Both the position numbers and the translations under genes were made by a program. DNA of 42,001 nucleotides, from assembly GCA_030610765.1 (NCBI GenBank), contig JAUWRD010000004.1, forward strand, positions 1 through 42,001, read 5' to 3'. This document shows, piece by piece, positions 2,118 to 40,174 of this stretch (the first letter of the stretch is position 1; each line of letters opens with the position of its first letter). The notes beneath the pieces are model-generated. The model was not told where the DNA came from. It saw only the letters and a list, made by a program, of their open reading frames with translations, and did not search any database. The DNA is from Actinomycetes bacterium. Its GTDB lineage: Bacteria > Actinomycetota > Aquicultoria > CAJVYJ01 > JAUVQD01.

Positions 2118-4745
2118 TTGAGTCGTAAACTAATCTTAATTGACGGCAATAGCCTGGTTTATCGGGCTTTTTACGCTTTGCCCACAACGCTGGCCTTATC
2201 AAGCGGTGAGGTGACAAACGCCGTATACGGTTTCACCGCTATGTTGATTCGCCTACTCATTGACGAAGAACCCGATGTTGTTTCCGTAGCTTTCGATAGT
2301 CGCGGGCCGACTTTTAGACATCTCCAATATAAAGAATATAAGGCACACAGGAAGCCGGCCCCTGATGAGTTGCACGCACAGTTTCCGTTGGTCAAAGAGG
2401 TGCTAGGCGCCTTGGCGATTCCAATTTTTGAACTCAAGGGCTATGAGGGTGACGATATACTGGCAACTTTGGCGGCGTCGGGAGTGGCCGCGGGAGATGA
2501 CGTGATTGTGGTCACTGGTGATCGAGACGCATTTCAAATGATTTCCGACGACAATGTGCGCATCATGACAACCAGAAAAGGAATTACCGACATTGTTATC
2601 TACGATCGCGAAAAAGTTATTGAGCGATACGGTGTAACCCCTGAGCAAATACCCGACTTCCTGGCCCTTAAGGGTGATCCTTCCGATAACATCCCCGGGG
2701 TGCCCGGCATCGGAGATAAAACAGCGGCCAAGCTGATTCAAGAATATGGGACGATAGAGGCTATTTACGAGCAGGTTGAAGATATAAGTCGAGACAAGCT
2801 TCGTGAATCTTTGGTGGCCAACAAAGAAGACGCTGAGATAAGCAAGAAGTTGGCGATCTTAGATACCAAAGTTCCGCTTGACGGTGATTTAAAAGACGCG
2901 CGCGTAGGTGAGTGGGATATTGCGAATGTTCGGAAAGTCTTTTTAAAGTTGGAATTTCGCACACTTCTGGATCGTTTCGAAACTAACTTGGCTTCCGGAT
3001 CAAAAGATATCCAACCGCTGACAGTAAAAATAATTGATTTGCCTGCTGATCGTTTAGCGAGCTGGCTGAAAGAGCATAGCGGCACGAAGGAAATCGGCGT
3101 TGAGACAGTAGATGACGCGGCTGGACAAACGGTTGGTTTAGCCATCGGGGTTATTAGCAAAGATGGCCCAAAGGCAATCACCCTTAAAACCTCTGAGTTG
3201 AGTGAGTCGCAACGATCGGAGTTACGGCTTTGGCTTCGGGAGAAGGATAGAGTTAAGTCTGTCCACAATTTAAAGAGTAAATTCAGCTCGGCACTAACCC
3301 TGGGACTGCCGTTTGAGGGAGCTTTATTTGATCCGTTTTTAGCCGCGCATCTGGTTGAGCCAACAGGCGCGGGATACGAACTTGAAGAGCTAGTCACCCT
3401 CTATCTGGAAGAACAAATACCGGAAGATAGCAGTCTGGCGCAGATGGCCGCGGTCAAAGCGGCTGCTAGTTTGTTAATAATGAAGCCTCTTAAAGCGGCT
3501 TTAAAAGCAGGTGAGCTTGTCGATGTTTTCAATAAGATCGAGCTGCCACTCTCGAAAGTTTTAGCGCGGATGGAAGCTTGCGGTGTCGGTCTCGACAGGC
3601 AAGTTTTGTCGCAGCTCTCAAAAGAGATGAAGCAGAACCTCGACAAAGCCGCGGCCCAAATATATGAACTTGCGGGCGCTGAATTCAATATTAAGTCCCC
3701 TCGCCAAGTTTCGGACGTTCTCTTTGAAAAGCTTGGCTTGACTCCGGGTCGCAAGACAAAAACAAAAGCCGGATACTCAACAGACGCGGCGACTTTGGCT
3801 AAACTGGCTAGCGAGCACGCAATTGTGCCGTTGATAACTGAATACCGGGAAAACGCAAAGCTAAAATCAACCTATGTTGACGCTCTTCCTAAACTATTAG
3901 ATCAAAAGACTGGTCGTTTACACACTTCCTTTAATCAGACCGTAACAGCGACAGGGCGTTTAAGTAGCAGCAATCCCAATCTCCAAAACATTCCGGTCAG
4001 AAGCAAACTAGGGCGAAAGATCAGGAAAGCGTTTATTCCAACGCATAAGGATGAAAAATTGCTGGCGATTGATTATTCGCAAATAGAGCTCAGGCTCCTC
4101 GCTCACTTCAGCAATGACAAAACCCTGAAGCAAGCTTTTAAAGAGAATAAAGATATTCATACGGCTACAGCTGCCGAAGTCTTTGGTCTTTCACTAGAAG
4201 ATGTGACGCAGGAGCGGCGGCGCCACGCCAAGGCAATTAATTTTGGCATTATCTATGGTATCAGCGCGTTTGGACTCGCTGAGCAGACAGGGATTTCGCC
4301 GGAGGAAGCAAAAAAATATATCGAAGAATATCTTGGCCGCTATCCAGGAGTACGTCGGTACCTGGAAGAAACGGTCAAGGAGGCCTACCAGCGGGGATAT
4401 GTGACGACCATCTCCGGGCGAAAACGATATATTAGAGAGCTCAAAAGCGCCAATTTTAACCAGCGTTCATTTGGAGAACGAGTGGCGACAAACGCACCCC
4501 TTCAAGGTAGCGCCGCTGACATAATTAAGTTGGCCATGATAAATATAGACGCATTTCTAGCTGAATCCGGATTGCAGACCCGAATGATTTTGCAAGTCCA
4601 TGATGAGCTTGTTTTTGAGGTTCCCCCAATGGAGGAAAGCATCGTTACGCCAAGAATTGTCGAGTTTATGGAAGATGCTTATAAGCTAAGTGTTCCGCTC
4701 GAAGTTAAAGTGTGTTTTGGAAGAAACTGGGACGAAGCCAAGTAA
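2118..4745 (+). CDS. polA: DNA polymerase I
   Basis: 875 aa, TTG start. 5' nuclease domain (LIDGNSLVYRAFYALP, GDPSDNIPGVPGIGDKTAAKL) and family A polymerase motifs DYSQIELRLLAHFS, RRHAKAINFGIIYGIS, QVHDELVFEV. Confidence 0.98.
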   Translation: MSRKLILIDGNSLVYRAFYALPTTLALSSGEVTNAVYGFTAMLIRLLIDEEPDVVSVAFDSRGPTFRHLQYKEYKAHRKPAPDELHAQFPLVKEVLGALAIPIFELKGYEGDDILATLAASGVAAGDDVIVVTGDRDAFQMISDDNVRIMTTRKGITDIVIYDREKVIERYGVTPEQIPDFLALKGDPSDNIPGVPGIGDKTAAKLIQEYGTIEAIYEQVEDISRDKLRESLVANKEDAEISKKLAILDTKVPLDGDLKDARVGEWDIANVRKVFLKLEFRTLLDRFETNLASGSKDIQPLTVKIIDLPADRLASWLKEHSGTKEIGVETVDDAAGQTVGLAIGVISKDGPKAITLKTSELSESQRSELRLWLREKDRVKSVHNLKSKFSSALTLGLPFEGALFDPFLAAHLVEPTGAGYELEELVTLYLEEQIPEDSSLAQMAAVKAAASLLIMKPLKAALKAGELVDVFNKIELPLSKVLARMEACGVGLDRQVLSQLSKEMKQNLDKAAAQIYELAGAEFNIKSPRQVSDVLFEKLGLTPGRKTKTKAGYSTDAATLAKLASEHAIVPLITEYRENAKLKSTYVDALPKLLDQKTGRLHTSFNQTVTATGRLSSSNPNLQNIPVRSKLGRKIRKAFIPTHKDEKLLAIDYSQIELRLLAHFSNDKTLKQAFKENKDIHTATAAEVFGLSLEDVTQERRRHAKAINFGIIYGISAFGLAEQTGISPEEAKKYIEEYLGRYPGVRRYLEETVKEAYQRGYVTTISGRKRYIRELKSANFNQRSFGERVATNAPLQGSAADIIKLAMINIDAFLAESGLQTRMILQVHDELVFEVPPMEESIVTPRIVEFMEDAYKLSVPLEVKVCFGRNWDEAK

Positions 4746-29028: not shown

Positions 29029-29167
29029 ATACTGATCCTCCTTGACCTTGGCAATTTTATCACAGCTGATAGCCTTCTCCAATTCCCGGCTGCGCACTAA
29101 GCGCAAGAAATTCACGTTTTTCTAGAAAACATTTGGCGTGACCTCCAGATTTTGTTATCCTAAGGTC

Positions 29168-30463
29168 GTGCCGATCTCTAATTATCCCGCGGCAACTTTA
29201 AAAAATGTGAGCTTCAATCAACCGGACAAAAAGAACCGGCGGCGTTTTTCTACGCTATTAATTATAGTCGGTATCGCGGTTATCGCTTCCCCCTTCGTAA
29301 CTGAAATCTATGGCTATTTTGTAAAGGATCGTCTCAATCAAGAGTGGGCGAAGCAAATCACCGAACAAAAAGAGGAGGCAATTACCGCCGCCATAGACCA
29401 AGCTGATCGTCTCGGAGATAGGACAGTCGCATCGGAAGAGGACATTCTTAGGAAAGCTACCGGGATAGTTGGCGATTTGGACGGAGATGAATTTCCACTA
29501 ACTAAGATCAGGATTCCAAAAATAGATCTCGAGCAAGTTGTTCTCAAGGGAGTTAGTCCCGAAGTCCTAAAGAACGGACCCGGCCATTATACGGGCACGG
29601 CTTTACCAGGGCAAAGAGGGAATATAGGGATCGCCGGCCATCGCGTAACGTATACCCATCCGTTTAATCGGATAGACGAGTTGGATTCCGGTGACAAGGT
29701 CATTTTAGAAACGATAGACAATATATATGAATATCGAGTCACATCAAAACAACAGCTTGAACCCAATGATTTGCAGGCCCTAAAACCGACAAAAGACGCC
29801 AGAGTGACGCTAACGACGTGCGCACCAAAGTACAGCGCCAGGTATAGATTAGACGTCCAAGCTTCATTGGTGAAAATCGTTCCCACTCATCAGCCTTCGC
29901 TGGTGCGTCGTTTAGTAAACCGGCTGGCCAAGCCTGCGCCGAGGAAATTGCCTAAGAGCATATTGGATCTGGCTTTACCAAGAGGGCAAGCAGGTGTCGC
30001 AAACGATCCGGAAGATATTGACGCGCGACTATATCTCGGTATGATATATCGCAATACTGGTCAATATAAGGAAGCAGCTGAGCAGCTCAACAAGGCAATC
30101 GAGTTAGACGAAACTCGGCCGGAGCCTTACTACGAATTATCATTCGTATACGAAAAAAATAATCAAATTAATAAAGCTATTAGTGTGTTGGCAAAGGCCA
30201 TTGAGCGCGCGCCGGAATTTGAGTGGGCCTATTATCGACTGGGTACCATTTATCTCGACTCCGGAAAGATCGATAAAGCTGTTCAAGTTTTAAAAGCGAC
30301 GCTCGCGCTCAACCCACTGTCAGCGGACACTCATTTTTTCTTGGGTCAAGCTTATGAAAAACAAGGAGAGCCAGAATTAGCGTTGGCCGAATACGAAGAA
30401 TCATTAGAGTATGTTCCAGATTTCCTGGAAGCCAAAGCTGCGATAAGGCGACTTGCGAACTAA
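29168..30463 (+). CDS. Sortase fused to C-terminal TPR domain
   Basis: N-terminal TM. Sortase core FPLTKIRIPKIDLEQVVLKGVS...GNIGIAGHRVTYTHPFNRIDEL...VTLTTCAPKYSARYRLDV (catalytic H, TLTTC, R), then three to four TPR-like units. GTG at 29168 or upstream TTG 29138. Confidence 0.88.
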   Translation: MPISNYPAATLKNVSFNQPDKKNRRRFSTLLIIVGIAVIASPFVTEIYGYFVKDRLNQEWAKQITEQKEEAITAAIDQADRLGDRTVASEEDILRKATGIVGDLDGDEFPLTKIRIPKIDLEQVVLKGVSPEVLKNGPGHYTGTALPGQRGNIGIAGHRVTYTHPFNRIDELDSGDKVILETIDNIYEYRVTSKQQLEPNDLQALKPTKDARVTLTTCAPKYSARYRLDVQASLVKIVPTHQPSLVRRLVNRLAKPAPRKLPKSILDLALPRGQAGVANDPEDIDARLYLGMIYRNTGQYKEAAEQLNKAIELDETRPEPYYELSFVYEKNNQINKAISVLAKAIERAPEFEWAYYRLGTIYLDSGKIDKAVQVLKATLALNPLSADTHFFLGQAYEKQGEPELALAEYEESLEYVPDFLEAKAAIRRLAN

Positions 30464-30570: not shown

Positions 30571-30800
30571 AGTGAGAGAGCGTACATGTTATTTAAGTGA
30601 CTGAACTAAAGATGAGGAAAACGCTGTAGATGCGGTTTTTCGGAAAAACATTCGAACTCGACCCAAAGCTTCAGATGCCAGGCTGACAAAATCAGATGTG
30701 AGTGAGCGTATGATTATTATGTGATTCGAACAGAAGATTTTGGAGAACGCAGCAGATGGAGTTTTGCGTCGAATTCGCGTTCTATCTGCGACGGCGTAAC
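30571..30800. repeat. Pair of imperfect ~90 bp direct repeats in intergenic DNA
   Basis: Copy A ~30571-30660 (GTGAGAGAGCGTA...GAACTAAAGATGAGGAAAACGCTGTAGATGCGGTTTT). Copy B ~30699-30800 (GTGAGTGAGCGTA...GAACAGAAGATTTTGGAGAACGCAGCAGATGGAGTTTT). Confidence 0.5.
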
Positions 30801-31279
30801 CAAGTGCCACCGGAAATCAAAGCTCCGCCACTCAAAACAAGCTGCCACAACTCTACTCCTGTTTCAGCTTGCTCATCAAATGGAAGTTCTTGTGCGGGAG
30901 CTGCAGCACTCGGAGCAGCCACTGCTGGTTCCGTCTGCGTGCTTTGCGTTGGTTCCGGTTGTGCTTGTTGAACCGGGGTGGTTTGGGCGACCTCGCCTAC
31001 TCCGTAGTTTTCAGCTAACCAGCCGATTACGGCATCGCGCTCGGCATCAGTCAAACTGGCGCCTCGTTCTATTTCTTTCTTGACGAGTTTCGACCATTCA
31101 GTTTTGCTTTTTTTTGCTTCACGAATACGATCTGCCATATGACAAGCCGTACACTTACCCGTTACGACCGTTTCCGGGTCGATTGCTGCCATTGATATTG
31201 ACGGAAACAGCAATAAAATGGCTGTCGTTAATATAACGGCGATCATAAACTTACTTTTCGTCACCATGCTCCGTTCCAT
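30782..31279 (-). CDS. Secreted c-type-heme (CxxCH) protein with sortase-like C-terminal sorting signal
   Basis: Signal peptide (FMIAVILTTAILLLFPSISMAA), VVTGKCTACHMADRI, Pro/Gln/Ala-rich linker, C-terminus QAETGVELWQLVLSGGALISGGTWLRRRR. Confidence 0.75.
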   Translation of the reverse strand: MERSMVTKSKFMIAVILTTAILLLFPSISMAAIDPETVVTGKCTACHMADRIREAKKSKTEWSKLVKKEIERGASLTDAERDAVIGWLAENYGVGEVAQTTPVQQAQPEPTQSTQTEPAVAAPSAAAPAQELPFDEQAETGVELWQLVLSGGALISGGTWLRRRR

Positions 31280-31521: not shown

Positions 31522-32061
31522 ATGTCAAAAAAACTGGAAGTTCCCGAAATAAAAACGGGGCAAGATCAAAATGATGAGTCATTTACGTTTGAACTTCAAT
31601 ACGTAACCTTTAAGCTTGATGAGCAATCTTATGGCGTTAACGTTGATGCTGCGCTCGAGGTTATACGAATGGTTGCTCTGACCGAGTCCCCGGAGTCGCC
31701 AGATCATGTTGTCGGTGTGATAAACCTGAGGGGCCAAGTTGTTCCAATTGTTGACCTTCGAAAACGGCTGGGGCTAAAGGCGGGCATTTACACTCTCGTG
31801 ACCCCGATTCTAATTGTTACCATCAAAGATTGGACGGTTGGTCTTATTGTTGACCAGGTTTCCGAGGTAATCACAATCGCTCCCTCGCTGATTGAAAAAT
31901 CGGCAGAAACTTTTTCAGGATCTCAATGTGTAGCCGGCGTCGCCAAGCTCGATCACGGGCTGGTTTTCTTGCTTGATTTGGGATATGTATTCTCAGCTGA
32001 CGAAAGCAAGGTAATGCAAGAGGTTATCGATACCAGAATTGACGACAAGGTTCTTGCGTAA
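31522..32061 (+). CDS. cheW: CheW-like chemotaxis coupling protein
   Basis: FKLDEQSYGVNVDAALEVIRM...VVGVINLRGQVVPIVDLRKRLGL. SD CTGGAGG upstream of ATG. Confidence 0.93.
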   Translation: MSKKLEVPEIKTGQDQNDESFTFELQYVTFKLDEQSYGVNVDAALEVIRMVALTESPESPDHVVGVINLRGQVVPIVDLRKRLGLKAGIYTLVTPILIVTIKDWTVGLIVDQVSEVITIAPSLIEKSAETFSGSQCVAGVAKLDHGLVFLLDLGYVFSADESKVMQEVIDTRIDDKVLA

Positions 32062-32096
32062 AGTCCGAGCAGAACTTACGAGACAATCCTTTGGCA

Positions 32097-33557
32097 ATGG
32101 CAACTAAACATACCGAACTTGATGACGCCAGCTATGAAAAAGTAAGAGATTTCGTCCTTCAAAGAACTGGTCTTAGTTTTCCGGAAAGGAAACGTGGCGA
32201 GCTCGAGCGGGCGGTCTTCGAGGCTCTAAAGGCCACCGAATATAATTCGATGGACGACTATCTCGAAGCTTTGAGCGGGGCGGCTAACCCGGGAGAGATG
32301 GACGCGCTTGTCAATCTTCTGACGGTTGGTGAGACCTATTTCTACCGGGACGAGCGTCAATTCAAACTACTACAAAATGATATCTTGCCCAAATTGATCT
32401 CGGAGCGCGCGAGCACCACAAGGCGTCTTAGGATCTGGAGTGCCGGCTGCGCAACTGGTGAGGAACCGTATTCCATCGCCATCACTATGCGAGAGCTTGT
32501 TCCATATATGGATACATGGGAGACACTCGTGTTGGGCACCGATATTAATCGAGAATCGCTGAGGCGGGCCAAGGTGGGCCATTACGGACAGTGGTCCTTT
32601 CGAGCTATGCCGGACAATTGGCTGGATAGCTATTTTTTTGTCTCTTCTGAACGTGAGTTTCATATTTCGGAAGCGATAAAGAAAATCGTGGACTTCGACT
32701 ATCTAAACCTGAAAGAAAGCGCATTCCCTTCATGTTTTAATAATACTTGCGATATGGATTTAATCATCTGCCGCAATGTCTCGATCTATTTTGACCAGAA
32801 AACAACCGATCGGATGATGGAAGGATTTTATAATTCTTTAGTTGACGGTGGTTGGTTGCTTATGGGAGCTTCGGATCCGATACCGCCAAAAGAGATGTTA
32901 TGGGATCGCAACTATTCAGGCGTCTTTATATATCAAAAGAAATCGCCCGCTAGCGATGCTAGAAATCGCGAAAGAAAAGGCGATAACTCGGGTCGCATTA
33001 CTCTTTCCTCCACGGTTTTAGAAGGAACGGAAGAAAGACGAGGCGAAAACGTTGGGCCGACGGACGCATTAGCGGAAAGCCGGGCTTTGATCGAAGTAGG
33101 TCAACCTGTTTTAGCAGCAGACCAGCTGGCCGAGAAACTGAAAGAAGAACCTAAGTCTTGCGAAGCTCTCTTTCTAATGGCAAAAGCTGCCATAGCTCGC
33201 GGACAGTTGTCCGAAGCAAAGAAGTGGGCGCAGAAAGTGACTGAAGCGGACAAGCTAAATGTGAAAGCTTATTATTTGCTGTCGAATATTTACCAAGGCC
33301 TGGAAGATGAAGACCGGGCCATTGAGTGTCTGAAGAAAACAGTCTATATAGATAAATGCTTTATTCCCGGTCATTTTGCCTTGGGGTGTTTGTGTAAAAA
33401 GCAGAAACGTCTGGTCATGGGGCGCAAAGCTTTTAAAAACGTAGTAAGGCTAATGATCGGTCGCCAAAAGGACGAAGTAGTACCAGAGACAAATGGAACA
33501 ACATTCGGTCAGTTGCTTGAAGTTGCCGAAATGAACCTAAGGAGACAGGAGCGATAA
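32097..33557 (+). CDS. CheR methyltransferase with C-terminal TPR repeats (WspC-like)
   Basis: TVGETYFYRDERQFKLL, RIWSAGCATGEEPYSIAI, LIICRNVSIYFDQKT, then TPR-like repeats from about residue 330. Confidence 0.93.
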   Translation: MATKHTELDDASYEKVRDFVLQRTGLSFPERKRGELERAVFEALKATEYNSMDDYLEALSGAANPGEMDALVNLLTVGETYFYRDERQFKLLQNDILPKLISERASTTRRLRIWSAGCATGEEPYSIAITMRELVPYMDTWETLVLGTDINRESLRRAKVGHYGQWSFRAMPDNWLDSYFFVSSEREFHISEAIKKIVDFDYLNLKESAFPSCFNNTCDMDLIICRNVSIYFDQKTTDRMMEGFYNSLVDGGWLLMGASDPIPPKEMLWDRNYSGVFIYQKKSPASDARNRERKGDNSGRITLSSTVLEGTEERRGENVGPTDALAESRALIEVGQPVLAADQLAEKLKEEPKSCEALFLMAKAAIARGQLSEAKKWAQKVTEADKLNVKAYYLLSNIYQGLEDEDRAIECLKKTVYIDKCFIPGHFALGCLCKKQKRLVMGRKAFKNVVRLMIGRQKDEVVPETNGTTFGQLLEVAEMNLRRQER

Positions 33558-34145
33558 ATGGGATCTTCAAATGGTGGAAAAAAAGAACCAGGTGGAATTA
33601 GCGATAGGTTTGTCGCTCTGCGCCTTGACGATGACCAAATAAAAAATGTCCTGGCGGATCGAGCGGCCACTCTGGCTCAAGTGTCGGAAGAAGATTCCGA
33701 AGCAGTCAAGCCTAAACAGTTTGTCAGCTTTAAGATCGGGGCGGAGCGGTTTGGCGTTGAAGTCCAGTATATTGAAGAGGTTCAACCTCTTCGTGATCTC
33801 ACGATAATTCCCTGCACACCCGAGTTCGTTGTCGGGGCGGTAAATATTCGAGGACGAATTACTCCGGTTATCGATATAAAAGTATTTTTTGATATGCCCA
33901 GGAGCGATGTGATCAGTCAAGACAAGGTCATAGTCTTACAGGTTGGAGAGAAACACTTTGGCATCATTGCGGACAACGTGGAAGATGTCATGAACCTGGC
34001 AACTGAGGAAATCGGATCGCAACTGGCAACTCTGTCGGGGTCTCATGAAGAGTTTATTCAGGGAGTCGCCGATCCTCAAATAATAATTTTAGATATCAAG
34101 AAGTTGGCGAACGATAGACGCATGGTAGTCCATGAGAACGTCTAG
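33558..34145 (+). CDS. cheW: Second CheW-like coupling protein
   Basis: [56 protein letters not shown]. Confidence 0.93.
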
Positions 34146-34165
34146 GTCTTAAGAAGGAGAGAAAG

Positions 34166-35986
34166 ATGGTGAAAAATGTATTCGGAGGTCTGCGGACAAG
34201 GTTGATTTTCGGTTCAGTTGTTATCGCGACCATAACCTTACTAACAGCGGTATTTGCTTATTCGCAACTGAATGGCGTGATTAGCACGCTGAATGATGAG
34301 GCGATAGTTCAGCTGGAGGGGCGCGGCGTTATGGAACATGCTTCCTATGAGATTTTAAAACTCAATGAGCCCACCTTGACTTATCTTCTGTACTTTGGCG
34401 ACGAAGAGAATATGGCAAAGACAAGAGAGGTCTTTGATGAAGTAGCGATAGATGTAGTCGGTGACGTCGAAGAAGCAGCCGCGGCGATGCCCGACAAGGC
34501 CGGGGAGAAATTGCTGCTCGGTGTGGCCGAAGAAACAAAAGAATTAGTATCCAAAGCTGAAACAGTGCTAGCTCTGGCTGATCAAGAAAAGATGGTTGGT
34601 CCTAAAACAAACGCTGCCTTGACTGAGTATGGCGAAGCTAGGGACAAAACGCTTAGTGAAGTCAAAGCAGTTAGGAAAGCTAAGGTGGCATCGGCGGAAA
34701 AAAGTGTCAAAGCGGCGACAGCGAAGCAAGAATCAGCGGCTCGTCTTATCAAAATAATCGCTTTGATAGCCGTTGGTCTAGCGGCAGCTACGGGATATTT
34801 GATGGCTCGGCTCGTCCATCGCCCGGTTTCAAATCTAATCCAGGCTGTTCGTCGAATTGACGAAGGCGACTTGGAAACAAAAGCAGAAAAGAGTTCTATT
34901 AATGAATTTAATATTTTGGCTACGGCTTTTAACAAGATGACCGGCAACTTAAAGCAGATGATTGAGTCTGAGAAGACGGTCAAGGAGCATCTCCAGACAA
35001 CTGTTGGGCAATACCGGGGCTTTGTTGATCAGGTTGCCGCGGGTGACCTGGCGGTCAGACTATCGGTAAACGGCAACGAAGACGAGCTCGCCGCGCTCGG
35101 GCGGAATCTGAACAAGATGGTGGCGTCGTTGAATGATATGACCGGCAATATTTCGTTGGCAACGACCGACATCACGTCGGCGTCGTCAGAGATTTTTGCG
35201 GCCACGTCTCAGCATAATTCGGGCGCGAGCGAACAAGCGGCAGCTATTAATCAAACGACCGTTACAGTTGATGAAGTTCGCCAGACTGCCGAGCAAACCA
35301 CTGAACGAGCGCAGTTCGTGGCCCAGTCGGCGAAGAAATCAGTCGAAATCTCCGATGAAGGTATGACGGCTGTTGGTCAGACAGTGATAGGGATGAATCA
35401 AATAAAAAATAAAGTTGAGCAGATCGCGGCTAATATTATTGCGCTTTCCGAACAGACTCAGCAAATCGGCGAAATAATCTCTACCGTAAACGATATCGCC
35501 GAACAGAGTAATCTATTGGCTCTCAATGCTTCTATTGAAGCCGCTCGGGCCGGTGAGCAAGGCAAAGGCTTTGCCGTTGTCGCGTCAGAAGTGCGGAACT
35601 TAGCCGAGCAATCACAGCAGGCTACCTCACAGGTAAGAGCAATATTGGACGATATCCAGAAAGCGACGAATACCGTTGTTATGGTGACCGAGGAAGGTAC
35701 TAAGCACGTGGATTCCGGGCTGGAGAAAGCGGAGTCAGCCGGTGACACTATTAAGGCTTTAGCCGGCTCAATAAACCAGGCTTCTGAAGCCGCGCAACAG
35801 ATTGTCGCCTCAGCAGAGCAACAAGCGGCTGGGATGGATCAGATAGCCGCGGCTATGACCAATATTAATCTATCAACCAACCAATCTCTGGTTTCGACAA
35901 AGCAAACTGAGGAAGCGACCCAGAAAATGGTCGACCTTGGAGACAGACTAAAAGATATGGTTTTGACGTACAAGACGAGTGCCTAG
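34166..35986 (+). CDS. Methyl-accepting chemotaxis protein
   Basis: Two TM segments, HAMP region(s), hairpin tip [41 protein letters not shown]. Confidence 0.96.
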
Positions 35987-35995
35987 GAGCAAAAA

Positions 35996-38239
35996 ATGTC
36001 AAAAACGCAAGACACGATGTCTCAGCAATTAATGGCCACATTTAGAATTGAGGCCGATGAGCATCTTCAAAACCTCAACAGCCTCCTTTTGAAGGTGGAA
36101 AAGGGCCCAGAACCTGATGAGCTGCAAACGCTTATCGAGAATATGTTTCGAGAGGCCCACAGCCTAAAAGGGGCCGCGCGCGCGGTTGACGCGACCTTTA
36201 TGGAAGTGATCGCGCACGGGCTTGAGAATGTATTCGCTGCTGCAAAGCAAGACGAAATAATCACGACCCCTGCTCTTTTCGACACTCTCTATGAGTCGTT
36301 GGATCACATCTCTGTGAGCTTGGAAACACTGGGAAGTGCGGAAGAGGCTGACAATGATCCCGCGGAGTTGCGGGCGCGGCTCGACAAAGCAGCCAAGGGA
36401 GACCCGTCGGCTAGCCAGAAGAAAATGCCGGCAAATGCGTCAAAAAAGAAACCCAAGAGCACAACGGCTTCGGGTGGTTCAGCTAAGAAGGTCGAGGAGA
36501 CAATTAGAGTCTCTACTCGCAAGCTGGATGGTCTAATGACGCATGTTGAAGAATTGCTCGTCTCAAAAATCAGGAATGAACAGCGCTTGTCTGAGTTAAA
36601 AGAGATTAAAGGCTTTTTGGGGGGCTGGCAAAAGAGTTGGGCAAAAACCCGCATTGCCTGTGATCGTATTCGCAAACACTCAGATGGTGATCTCGAGGAG
36701 ATCGTATCTTTTCTCGGGGAGAACCAGCAGAACTTAAAGTTCATGTGGCATCTCACAAACAAATTGTTTCAAAACTATTCAAGAGACACAATGCGCATGT
36801 CACTCGTAACTGAAGACTTGCAGTCAGATATTAGAGGGGTTCGCATGTTTCCCGTCTCAATTATTTTCGATGGTTATCGTCGAATGGTGCGTGATTTAGC
36901 TCGTGAGCAAGGCAAGCAGGTGGATTTGGTCATTACCGGGTCTGACACCGAGCTCGACAAAAAGGTCGTTGAGGGCATTAAGGACCCTCTCATGCATATG
37001 TTAAGAAACTCGGTCGACCATGGAATTGAAAAGCCGGACGCGAGAATCGCAAAAGGCAAACCGCCTTGCGGGACCATTTGGCTCGAAGCTAGTCAGCGAG
37101 GTAATGGCATTGCTATCGAAGTGAAAGACGATGGTCGGGGCGTTGATATTGCACGTATCAAAAACACCGTATTAGCCCGGGGCATATTGAGTAGCCAAGA
37201 AATAAAAGCCATGAACGAAGATGACCTCCAGCAGATGATTTTTAGATCCGGATTCTCGACGTCGACAACAGTTAGCAGTCTATCCGGACGAGGGGTGGGA
37301 CTTGACGTCGTCAAGACGAACATAGAGGAACTCAATGGCTTGGTAAGCGTTTATAAGGGAGAGCCCGGCGGCACAAGGTTCTTAATTGAATTGCCGTTGA
37401 CACTATCAACGTCAAGGGTGCTTTTGATTAGTTGTCGCGGGGAGACTTATGCAATTCCAACATCCATGGTTGAGCGCATTGTTCGTGTCAACAAGAAAGA
37501 CATTTTTTCAGTCGGGACAAAAGAAACGATTACAGTTGGCGGGCGATCACTTTCCCTGGCTCGTCTCGGACCTCTGCTTGAATTACCGCGTCGCATAACA
37601 AGCGAAAGCAACGATACTCTTAACGTCATAATCGTGGGAGTCGCGGAAAAACGCGTTGCTATCGCCGTAGACTCTCTAGAGGGCGAGAATGAAATAGTCA
37701 TAAAGAGCCTTGGCAAGATGATGGCTCGTGTCCGCAATGTCTCCGGCGCGACGGTCCTTGGCACCGGTAAAGTCGTGATTATTTTAAACGTCGCTGATCT
37801 AGTTAAGTCTGCCAAGAAAAATGACGGTATTGAAGCAAAAGAGCTTGAGCTACAAAGCGACAACCGCCTGGGGCGTACAAAATCAGTTCTTGTAGTTGAT
37901 GATTCCATGACCGCGCGGATTCTTGAGAAAAACATCTTGGAGTCGGCCGGGTACGATGTCGTACTTGCCAACGATGGGGTGGAAGCTTTGCGGGCGCTTA
38001 AGTCAAACGATTGCGACCTGATAATTTCCGATATTGATATGCCAAATATGAATGGTTTTGATCTAACTCAGAAAATCAAGAATCACGACAACCATCGTGA
38101 CACGCCGGTAGTGTTGGTTACAGCCTTAGATTCACCTGCAGACCGCGAGAGAGGTCTTGATGCCGGGGCTGATGTCTTCATGACCAAGCACGGGTTCGAC
38201 CAAAAGAATTTTTTAGCCACAATTGAGCAACTGATTTAG
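35996..38239 (+). CDS. cheA: Hybrid CheA histidine kinase with C-terminal REC domain (WspE/FrzE-like)
   Basis: Hpt AHSLKGAARAV, HATPase LRNSVDHGIE and DDGRGVD, CheW-like regulatory domain, C-terminal REC SVLVVDDSMTARILEKN...LIISDIDMPNMNGFDL. Confidence 0.95.
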   Translation: MSKTQDTMSQQLMATFRIEADEHLQNLNSLLLKVEKGPEPDELQTLIENMFREAHSLKGAARAVDATFMEVIAHGLENVFAAAKQDEIITTPALFDTLYESLDHISVSLETLGSAEEADNDPAELRARLDKAAKGDPSASQKKMPANASKKKPKSTTASGGSAKKVEETIRVSTRKLDGLMTHVEELLVSKIRNEQRLSELKEIKGFLGGWQKSWAKTRIACDRIRKHSDGDLEEIVSFLGENQQNLKFMWHLTNKLFQNYSRDTMRMSLVTEDLQSDIRGVRMFPVSIIFDGYRRMVRDLAREQGKQVDLVITGSDTELDKKVVEGIKDPLMHMLRNSVDHGIEKPDARIAKGKPPCGTIWLEASQRGNGIAIEVKDDGRGVDIARIKNTVLARGILSSQEIKAMNEDDLQQMIFRSGFSTSTTVSSLSGRGVGLDVVKTNIEELNGLVSVYKGEPGGTRFLIELPLTLSTSRVLLISCRGETYAIPTSMVERIVRVNKKDIFSVGTKETITVGGRSLSLARLGPLLELPRRITSESNDTLNVIIVGVAEKRVAIAVDSLEGENEIVIKSLGKMMARVRNVSGATVLGTGKVVIILNVADLVKSAKKNDGIEAKELELQSDNRLGRTKSVLVVDDSMTARILEKNILESAGYDVVLANDGVEALRALKSNDCDLIISDIDMPNMNGFDLTQKIKNHDNHRDTPVVLVTALDSPADRERGLDAGADVFMTKHGFDQKNFLATIEQLI

Positions 38240-38253
38240 GAGAAGTTCTGATA

Positions 38254-39273
38254 ATGATAAAAGTACTGGTTGCCGAAGACTCGCCGGTTGTTAGAAAATT
38301 AATAATAAGCATTCTCCAGTCCGATCCGGGGATACGAGTAGTCGGTGTCGCAAAGAATGGTATAGAAGCGGTCGAAATGGCTGAAAGCTTGCGACCGGAC
38401 GTCATAACGATGGACATCGTCATGCCCAAGATGGACGGCGTAGAGGCGACGCAGCTAATCATGTCTCAGCGGCCGACGAGAATAGTTGTTGTTACTGCCA
38501 GCGTTAACACGGAAGAGTCTCGACCCGCGTTCCAAGCTATGAAAGCCGGGGCTCTCGTGGTCGTCGACAAACCGCGCGGTGTAAATCATAAGGATTTTCG
38601 TGATGTGAGCCAGAGGTTAATCAAGACTATAAAGATGATGGCTGAAGTTAAGGTAGTGACAAGATGGCCTGACAGAAAGAAGCCTCCGGCTAAAGATGGA
38701 CAAAAAGCATCTACAAGAATAATAGCTATTGGCGCTTCAACCGGCGGTCCGGCCGCAATTTGTCAAATACTCAATGGTTTGCCAAAGGACCTGGCGGTTC
38801 CCATTTTGATAGTGCAGCATATGACGCCCGGTTTTGGAACAGCATTTGCGACTTGGCTCGATAGTGAAAATGAAATGTCGGTTCAAATCGGTCAGATGGG
38901 GCGTAAGCTCGAGGCCGGTCAAGTCTATGTGGCGCCCGATAATTATCACACTGGAATAAGTGGTGACAATAAGATTGTTCTGACTTCAAAAAAAATATCA
39001 TTTAACCACCATAGACCATCTATCAACTTCATGTTTGACGCAGTCGCTAAGAGGTATGGATCAAAAGCCTTAGCAGTTCTTTTGACCGGCATGGGTGAGG
39101 ATGGCGCGTTAGGTTTAAGAGAAATAAAACAAGCGGGAGGAACGACAATTGCCCAAGACGAAGCCAGCTCAATTGTGTTTGGCATGCCAAAGTGTGCAAT
39201 AACAATGGGCGCCGTCGATCATATTCTTCCACCTGATAAAATAATTTCACAAATCATGCAGTTGCTTTACTAG
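38254..39273 (+). CDS. cheB: CheB protein-glutamate methylesterase
   Basis: N-terminal REC (VLVAEDSPVVRKLI, ITMDIVMPKMDGVEAT), C-terminal IGASTGGPAAI, IVQHMTPGF, LLTGMGEDGALGL. Confidence 0.96.
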   Translation: MIKVLVAEDSPVVRKLIISILQSDPGIRVVGVAKNGIEAVEMAESLRPDVITMDIVMPKMDGVEATQLIMSQRPTRIVVVTASVNTEESRPAFQAMKAGALVVVDKPRGVNHKDFRDVSQRLIKTIKMMAEVKVVTRWPDRKKPPAKDGQKASTRIIAIGASTGGPAAICQILNGLPKDLAVPILIVQHMTPGFGTAFATWLDSENEMSVQIGQMGRKLEAGQVYVAPDNYHTGISGDNKIVLTSKKISFNHHRPSINFMFDAVAKRYGSKALAVLLTGMGEDGALGLREIKQAGGTTIAQDEASSIVFGMPKCAITMGAVDHILPPDKIISQIMQLLY

Positions 39274-39301
39274 TAGATATCTTGAATAAGGAGATTAGCC
39301 A

Positions 39302-40174
39302 ATGTCAAAAAGAATATTATTAGTCGAAGATAGTCCAACTCAGGCTCAAAAAGCTCAGTTGATCCTTGAGCGCGAAGGTTACGATGTGACGCTCGCGCCT
39401 GATGGGAGCGCCGGCCTCGAAGAGACCCTCCATTATCGGCCGGATCTGGTCGTCACAGATATCGTGATGCCCAAGATGGACGGATACGATATGTGTCGGG
39501 AGATTAAGGCAAACGAAGAAACCAGAGACATCCCAGTCGTTATGTTGACGACAAAAGGGGCCGTTATGGACATCATAAAAGGCCTTGGAGTAGGGGCGGA
39601 CAACTTTATCACTAAGCCCTATGAGGGCAGTTTATTGATCGGGCGGGTCCAGGAGATATTCAATAATCTTAACCTAAGAGAAAAAGGCCTGCTCTTCGAA
39701 GATCTTGAGCTGGAAAATTTCAATGGAAAAATAAAAATGTCTACAGATCGTTTTCAAATACTTTCGCTACTTCTAGGAACGATCGGTGTCATCATTCATT
39801 GTGATGTTATGGGGTTGTTTTTGCTAAGCACAACTGCCAAGCACAGTCTCTATATGGTTTCCTTGCAACCACTGGCCGATGGCTCTTGTGGAGATCTGAC
39901 GACGAAAGTGTTGGACGCCGCAAACGTGTTAGACGACGGAGAGCTCACAGCAGAAAATGTGCATTTGACCAGAGTTGTAAAGGAAGAAGACCTTCCCCAA
40001 CTGGAAGAAAACTTCGAGTCGTTCATGAGCGTACCTTTAATAACAGAAGGAAGAGTTATCGGGATATTGACGACAGCAAATACAAAAGAGAACGCGTTTC
40101 AGCCAGATGACGTTAAGCTCCTCTATCAGCTTGGCCTACAGTCGGCGGAAGCCTTTGATCGAATAGGTCGATAA
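39302..40174 (+). CDS. Response regulator with C-terminal GAF-like domain (REC-GAF)
   Basis: REC ILLVEDSPTQAQKAQLIL, VVTDIVMPKMDGYDM, TKPYEG; C-terminal ...FMSVPLITEGRVIGILTTANTKENAFQPDDVKLLYQLGLQ (GAF-like). Confidence 0.87.
   Translation: MSKRILLVEDSPTQAQKAQLILEREGYDVTLAPDGSAGLEETLHYRPDLVVTDIVMPKMDGYDMCREIKANEETRDIPVVMLTTKGAVMDIIKGLGVGADNFITKPYEGSLLIGRVQEIFNNLNLREKGLLFEDLELENFNGKIKMSTDRFQILSLLLGTIGVIIHCDVMGLFLLSTTAKHSLYMVSLQPLADGSCGDLTTKVLDAANVLDDGELTAENVHLTRVVKEEDLPQLEENFESFMSVPLITEGRVIGILTTANTKENAFQPDDVKLLYQLGLQSAEAFDRIGR

Follow-up and report, generated by a model that had tools for sequence, protein, structure and literature searches.

The window analysed here, a stretch of 42,001 nucleotides that forms part of a 1.82-Mb draft genome (97% complete), encodes a small secreted protein with a c-type heme motif and, next to it, a sortase. 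This arrangement raises the question of whether the heme protein is a substrate of the sortase and ends up on the cell wall. Comparative genomics, from which the functional pairing of cytochrome and sortase is argued throughout, makes it very likely that the two genes form a module mounting a monoheme c-type cytochrome on the wall. The features of both genes are compiled in Table 1.

Table 1 Features of the cytochrome and sortase-TPR genes. Positions are those of the window.
Feature	Position	Strand	Basis
Monoheme c-type cytochrome with C-terminal sorting signal	30785..31279	-	ORF and translation, 165 aa from the 31279 ATG; PF09098; homologs
Predicted Sec signal peptide, residues 1-31 (SISMA/A)	31187..31279	-	Sequence reading, hydropathy (hydrophobic segment); Ala31 invariant
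Heme c domain related to those of quinohemoprotein amine dehydrogenase alpha and SorB	30950..31174	-	Pfam, residues 36-110; profile matches
CTACH heme attachment motif (C43, C46, H47)	31139..31153	-	Sequence; both Cys and His invariant in 12-member alignment
Glu69, seven residues past invariant Trp62, at the position of the probable distal-ligand Met	31073..31075	-	Alignment
Low-complexity linker rich in P, Q, A, T, E (residues 101-136)	30872..30979	-	Sequence; length and composition differ among relatives
QAETG sorting motif, predicted sortase cleavage between T140 and G141	30857..30871	-	Q, A, T, G invariant
Hydrophobic segment VELWQLVLSGGALISGGTWL and RRRR tail	30785..30856	-	Sequence; G038 homolog above curated LPXTG_anchor cut-off
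Dedicated sortase-TPR protein, 441 aa, one N-terminal TM (about residues 35-62)	29138..30463	+	PF04203, TPR families, hydropathy, adjacency in 15 genomes
Sortase domain with His168, Cys228 (TLTTC), Arg237	29507..29872	+	Residues invariant among module sortases
Tyr151 in GPGHY, probable equivalent of SrtE1 Tyr229 contacting P3 Ala	29588..29590	+	Alignment; PMC5148588
C-terminal TPR domain, at least four repeats	30026..30460	+	Pfam; helical repeats in single-sequence model

An earlier note on this DNA had described an open reading frame with a CTACH motif, a low-complexity spacer and a QAETG-VELWQLVLSGGALISGGTWL-RRRR end, all of which are present on the minus strand where it had placed them. Its call of a c-type heme protein is borne out by the PF09098 heme c domain, which passes the Pfam cut-off (E-value 7.8e-7; 29.3 bits against 25.2); heme loading is predicted. 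A profile of the cytochrome family matches two PDB entries, 1JJU (6.6e-10) and 2BLF, the SorB cytochrome (2.7e-4). With 30.7 bits against 274 for TIGR03908, the protein is not a member of the full-length quinohemoprotein amine dehydrogenase alpha family. The start codon is uncertain: the ATG at 31279 (MERSMVTKSK) corresponds to Ile in a relative of the same genus, so that MVTKSK at 31267 may be the true start. Homologs were found in 21 of 149 relatives; a single-protein scan of contigs returned the same-genus relative L029 only, and whole-genome searches recovered the wider family. CxxCH is present in every tailed cytochrome except that of G033 (L016/L129, G033:C221:26768-27322), an otherwise normal family member whose heme site reads CSDTQSGCH with six residues between the cysteines; this is either a real variant or an assembly error. 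A single-sequence AlphaFold model of the cytochrome, computed with no alignment, was poor (mean pLDDT 61), and in the cytochrome tree the sequences are too short to settle whether the tailed forms are one clade.

Following the linker rich in P, Q, A, T and E, the cytochrome C-terminus reads QAETGVELWQLVLSGGALISGGTWLRRRR and contains all three elements of a sorting signal, namely a T-G motif, a hydrophobic segment and a basic end. Hydropathy analysis indicates that the segment, which is rich in Gly and Ser, is weakly hydrophobic. The tailed homologs, spread across four families within the class plus a single genome from another class, share the consensus QA[E/D/K/Q/N/H]TG[V/I/A]E-hydrophobic-R. 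The 12 aligned tails all have Q, A, T, G, E, two Gly and one Arg in common, while the linker varies, and tail codons compared within one genus differ mainly by silent changes. Conservation of the tail in orthologs, on which the earlier note had staked its reading, is evident from these invariant residues, and the proposed sorting-signal layout stands. The motif, however, is QAxTG family-wide and not a degenerate form of the LAxTG to which it had been likened.

A profile of the tail matched the cytochrome once in each of 15 of the 40 related genomes (E-values from 1e-16 to 1e-21) and no other protein in these genomes below 0.02. Extended to 397 genomes across the phylum, the search returned the same 15 and four weak matches on other proteins (in G062, G214, G229 and G255), which were rejected as short LPxTG-like ends of non-cytochrome proteins. 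The scan for similar tails that the note had suggested gave 37 in-silico sites for the back-translated QAxTG motif in the window's genome, one of which lies in a C-terminal motif-hydrophobic-basic tail, that of the cytochrome. The curated LPXTG_anchor model (TIGR01167) matches five of 12 family members at E<1; the window tail scores 13.4 against a cut-off of 15.9 and the G038 homolog 20.2. A search of the window's genome with this model found no LPXTG-type tail elsewhere.

As the neighbouring protein has a single N-terminal transmembrane segment, its sortase and TPR parts are predicted to be extracytoplasmic. The sortase domain passes the PF04203 cut-off (E-value 1.4e-32; 112.5 bits against 26.6). 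With the class E model NF033747 it reaches 127.8 bits against a cut-off of 160, yet this is its best score among the sortase class models; the enzyme is class-E-like and by curated score not a member of class E. In a single-sequence AlphaFold model (mean pLDDT 50), the TPR part alone is confident, with values of about 81-97 for residues 291-420. The module sortase of G035 (L131, G035:C64:6227-7478) is split over two overlapping frames, reflecting a frameshift either in the organism or in the assembly.

In the window, the sortase-TPR gene on the plus strand and the cytochrome gene on the minus strand converge with a gap of 318 bp, in agreement with the roughly 320 bp reported before, and the intergenic region contains no repeat or terminator of note. 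A tailed cytochrome is encoded in 15 of 40 related genomes, each time next to a sortase-TPR gene. In thirteen of these pairs the genes converge with their coding sequences 23-324 bp apart; in a further convergent pair, 2.8 kb and other genes intervene, and in the remaining pair both genes share one direction, with a gap of 76 bp. Where complete, the sortase-TPR homologs of the module genomes have E-values of at most 5e-74; two further genomes, G001 and G005, contain only sortase fragments at contig ends, and the sortase of G003 is cut by a contig end. The co-occurrence of tail and sortase among the 40 genomes corresponds to a Fisher p of about 3e-9 with kinship ignored. Because the flanking genes vary by family (chemotaxis and ftsW/pknB in the window, CNNM-like in f6, cysS/gltX in f13, lon in f16) and both genes are missing from G029 but present in its genus-mates G021 and G031, the linkage is specific to the cytochrome-sortase pair. 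No conserved third gene accompanies it across families. In a tree of the sortases from these genomes, those of the module group together as one clade (97/97 support), and that of the other-class genome nests inside this clade, adjoining family f6, which suggests transfer of the pair between lineages.

We then compared the predicted specificity of the enzyme with its candidate substrate. A beta3/beta4-loop tyrosine of S. coelicolor SrtE1 has been proposed to bind the P3 backbone and to favour Ala over Pro, and C. perfringens SrtD, which has Phe at this position, does not process LAETG (PMC5148588). The equivalence of Tyr151 to Tyr229 of SrtE1 was judged from alignments to class E structures and to CpSrtD, the site being GHY/GHF. 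All 13 module sortases that cover the region read GPGHY here, and Met, Ile or Leu takes the place of Tyr in most of the remaining sortases of these genomes. Every module tail has Ala at P3 and Gln, not Leu, at P4. The conserved GHY tyrosine and the P3 Ala indicate that, as read from the alignments, enzyme and substrate agree at the one position where class E differs. Gln at P4 has a parallel in non-LPXTG signals, as the string QVPTG occurs in sortase papers (PMC3019223, PMC3208642). No LAxTG substrate was found for the module sortase, and its sole candidate substrate is the QAxTG protein. The partnership envisaged in the earlier note thereby gains support, with a neighbouring sortase in every tail-bearing genome and a predicted P3 specificity that fits QA-x-TG. 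Its idea of wall display holds for cytochrome and sortase as a pair; since searches for this tail found no protein besides the cytochrome, they appear to be a dedicated pair and not a general display system.

Other sortases are encoded in these genomes as well. The window's genome (G000) has two more sortase genes, one on contig C80 and a fragment on C184, neither with a recognisable tail protein adjacent. G037 contains a second convergent sortase-substrate pair, in which the sortase (G037:C5:32981-33343) faces L045 (G037:C5:33510-33581), a 160-aa secreted protein ending AYTGAQ-hydrophobic-VKRQQ. G032 and G025 also hold ordinary LPxTG-type systems, as secreted proteins with QLPYTGG tails (L165, G032:C93:17222; L167, G025:C27:3437) lie about 4 kb from a different sortase. 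In the window, a chemotaxis cluster (31522-40174, plus strand; CheW, CheR-TPR, CheW-like, MCP, CheA, CheB, response regulator) starts right after the cytochrome; among the relatives, only G001 and G003 retain it at this place.

The residue at the probable distal-ligand position differs within the family. SorU, a cytochrome of sulfite oxidation, has His/Met ligation (PMC4760952). Seven residues past the invariant Trp, where the alignment places the probable distal ligand, all other alignment members and the aligned PDB relatives have Met, whereas the four members of the window's order (G000, G001, G003 and G006) have Glu and no other conserved Met or His after CxxCH. Glu69 may ligate the iron or may leave it five-coordinate. 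For maturation, the window's genome has PF01578 and PF05140 matches, both being families of cytochrome c assembly, and two of these matches are neighbours on contig C20. Because PF01578 also matches in genomes without the module, this machinery is permissive for the module and not specific to it. In G038, the genome from the other class, a CcsA/CcmF-like gene for heme handling is found at a distance of about 5 kb from the module, together with an overlapping gene for a membrane protein (C13; L132:2446-3378, 3219-4022). The heme-copper oxidase subunit COX1 was not detected in the window's genome and occurs in only three of the 15 module genomes, in one of them below the family cut-off; a general role of the cytochrome as oxidase donor was rejected on account of this absence from its own and most module genomes. 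No electron partner of the cytochrome was identified. With a single heme in each protein, a relay or a sensor is more plausible than a wire.

We propose that the cytochrome precursor would be exported by Sec and that the Ccs/Ccm machinery of the genome would attach heme to CTACH outside the membrane. The hydrophobic segment and the arginines would hold the protein at the membrane, where the adjacent class-E-like sortase, its TPR arm pointing outward, would recognise QAxTG, cleave between T and G and transfer the cytochrome to a cell-envelope nucleophile, most likely a peptidoglycan precursor. The heme domain would then sit in the wall on a flexible linker, and electrons would probably be passed between the outside and a partner in the membrane or wall. 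The data directly show how the two genes are built and conserved, their one-to-one linkage in the genomes, the residues for catalysis and specificity, and the maturation genes; cleavage, nucleophile, heme loading and redox role are inferred. For the wall cytochrome a redox role is somewhat favoured, and a sensory or catalytic one seems rather unlikely. Several points speak against the module as such: tail and sortase of the window score below curated cut-offs, P4 is Gln and not Leu, and the hydrophobic segment is weak. Moreover, a protein with one heme, acting by itself, is unable to move electrons through a thick wall. It may be speculated, with little confidence in the combination as a whole, that an undescribed one-sortase one-substrate module, maybe passed between lineages as a unit, builds a redox-active wall, that its TPR arm recruits the heme-loaded cytochrome or an electron partner, so that only holo-protein is attached and electrons are exchanged through the wall, and that the open or Glu-ligated heme of the window's order is a wall-mounted sensor or catalyst.

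How far could the data be explained otherwise? QAxTG is short, and 37 in-silico sites leave room for a secreted protein whose end merely resembles a sorting signal; the chance of this is nevertheless negligible, as the single site within a C-terminal motif-hydrophobic-basic tail shows conservation across several families. Gram-positive bacteria commonly have cytochromes c anchored in the membrane, and redox proteins with C-tail anchors are known, which offers a precedent for a segment that is a membrane tail anchor only and for a cytochrome that is an electron carrier on the outer face of the membrane, not a sortase substrate. LPXTG-annotated proteins have also been found to integrate as C-tail proteins (PMC10924467). 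A tail anchor, however, needs neither invariant Q, A, T, G and E nor a dedicated sortase kept adjacent in 15 genomes, and the Gly/Ser-rich segment is only weakly hydrophobic, so that we consider this explanation highly improbable.

Class C sortases polymerise pilins, and the sortase of the module might similarly ligate the cytochrome to an amine of another protein, pilus-like or recruited by the TPR arm, to give a surface fibre or complex in place of a peptidoglycan linkage. The TPR arm is a protein-binding fold and Gln at P4 is known from the QVPTG signals mentioned above, but no conserved third gene accompanies the pair across families and the sortase scores 127.8 bits with the class E model as opposed to 95.0 with class C; we regard this outcome as unlikely, though it deserves some weight. 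A similarly low probability is given to the idea that the wall protein is a heme-based sensor or small-molecule binder and not an electron carrier. It would apply especially to the window's order, where Glu69 in four of four members and the lack of another conserved Met or His past the heme motif suggest a weak or absent sixth ligand, which favours ligand binding; in family f1 the chemotaxis cluster follows the cytochrome. Outside f1 this neighbourhood is not conserved, however, and the Met retained in the other members means that the module overall fits electron transfer.

The wall-mounted cytochrome preferred here shares features with several known systems. With the class E enzymes SrtE1/SrtE2 and their LAxTG proteins (Streptomyces chaplins), the module has in common P3 Ala, the P3-reading Tyr, catalytic His-Cys-Arg, the motif-hydrophobic-basic C-terminus and the actinobacterial setting. 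It differs in having Gln for Leu at P4, a C-terminal TPR domain on the sortase, one adjacently encoded substrate per sortase, a c-type cytochrome as cargo and a score below the NCBIfam class E cut-off. By profile, the cytochrome resembles the PF09098 heme domain and the SorB sulfite dehydrogenase cytochrome in its single-heme CxxCH...W-x6-M...G stretch, but it is stand-alone and wall-tagged, has no catalytic partner gene nearby and shows Met replaced by Glu in the window's order. Isd-type sortase-anchored NEAT proteins bind exchangeable heme b for iron uptake; the module would likewise display heme on the wall by means of a sortase, but its protein has a motif for covalent c-heme and lacks a NEAT domain. 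Gram-positive surface cytochromes such as Thermincola OcwA and its relatives are multiheme (PMC6703420, PMC7911101). Like these, the module protein would be a c-type heme protein outside the membrane of a Gram-positive-type cell, but with one heme and a predicted covalent linkage to the wall.

While sortases, sorting signals and monoheme cytochromes c are individually known, the one-to-one pairing, the TPR arm, QAxTG and the cytochrome cargo appear new: in the openly accessible literature we found no precedent for a sortase-anchored c-type cytochrome, a TPR sortase or a QAxTG signal. The combination of QAxTG with a class-E-like enzyme represents a testable change of P4 specificity. How redox proteins are placed beyond the membrane in thick-walled bacteria is poorly understood; a sortase devoted to a single cytochrome would, if true, be a direct answer, and a redox protein with covalent heme would join the cargo of sortases.
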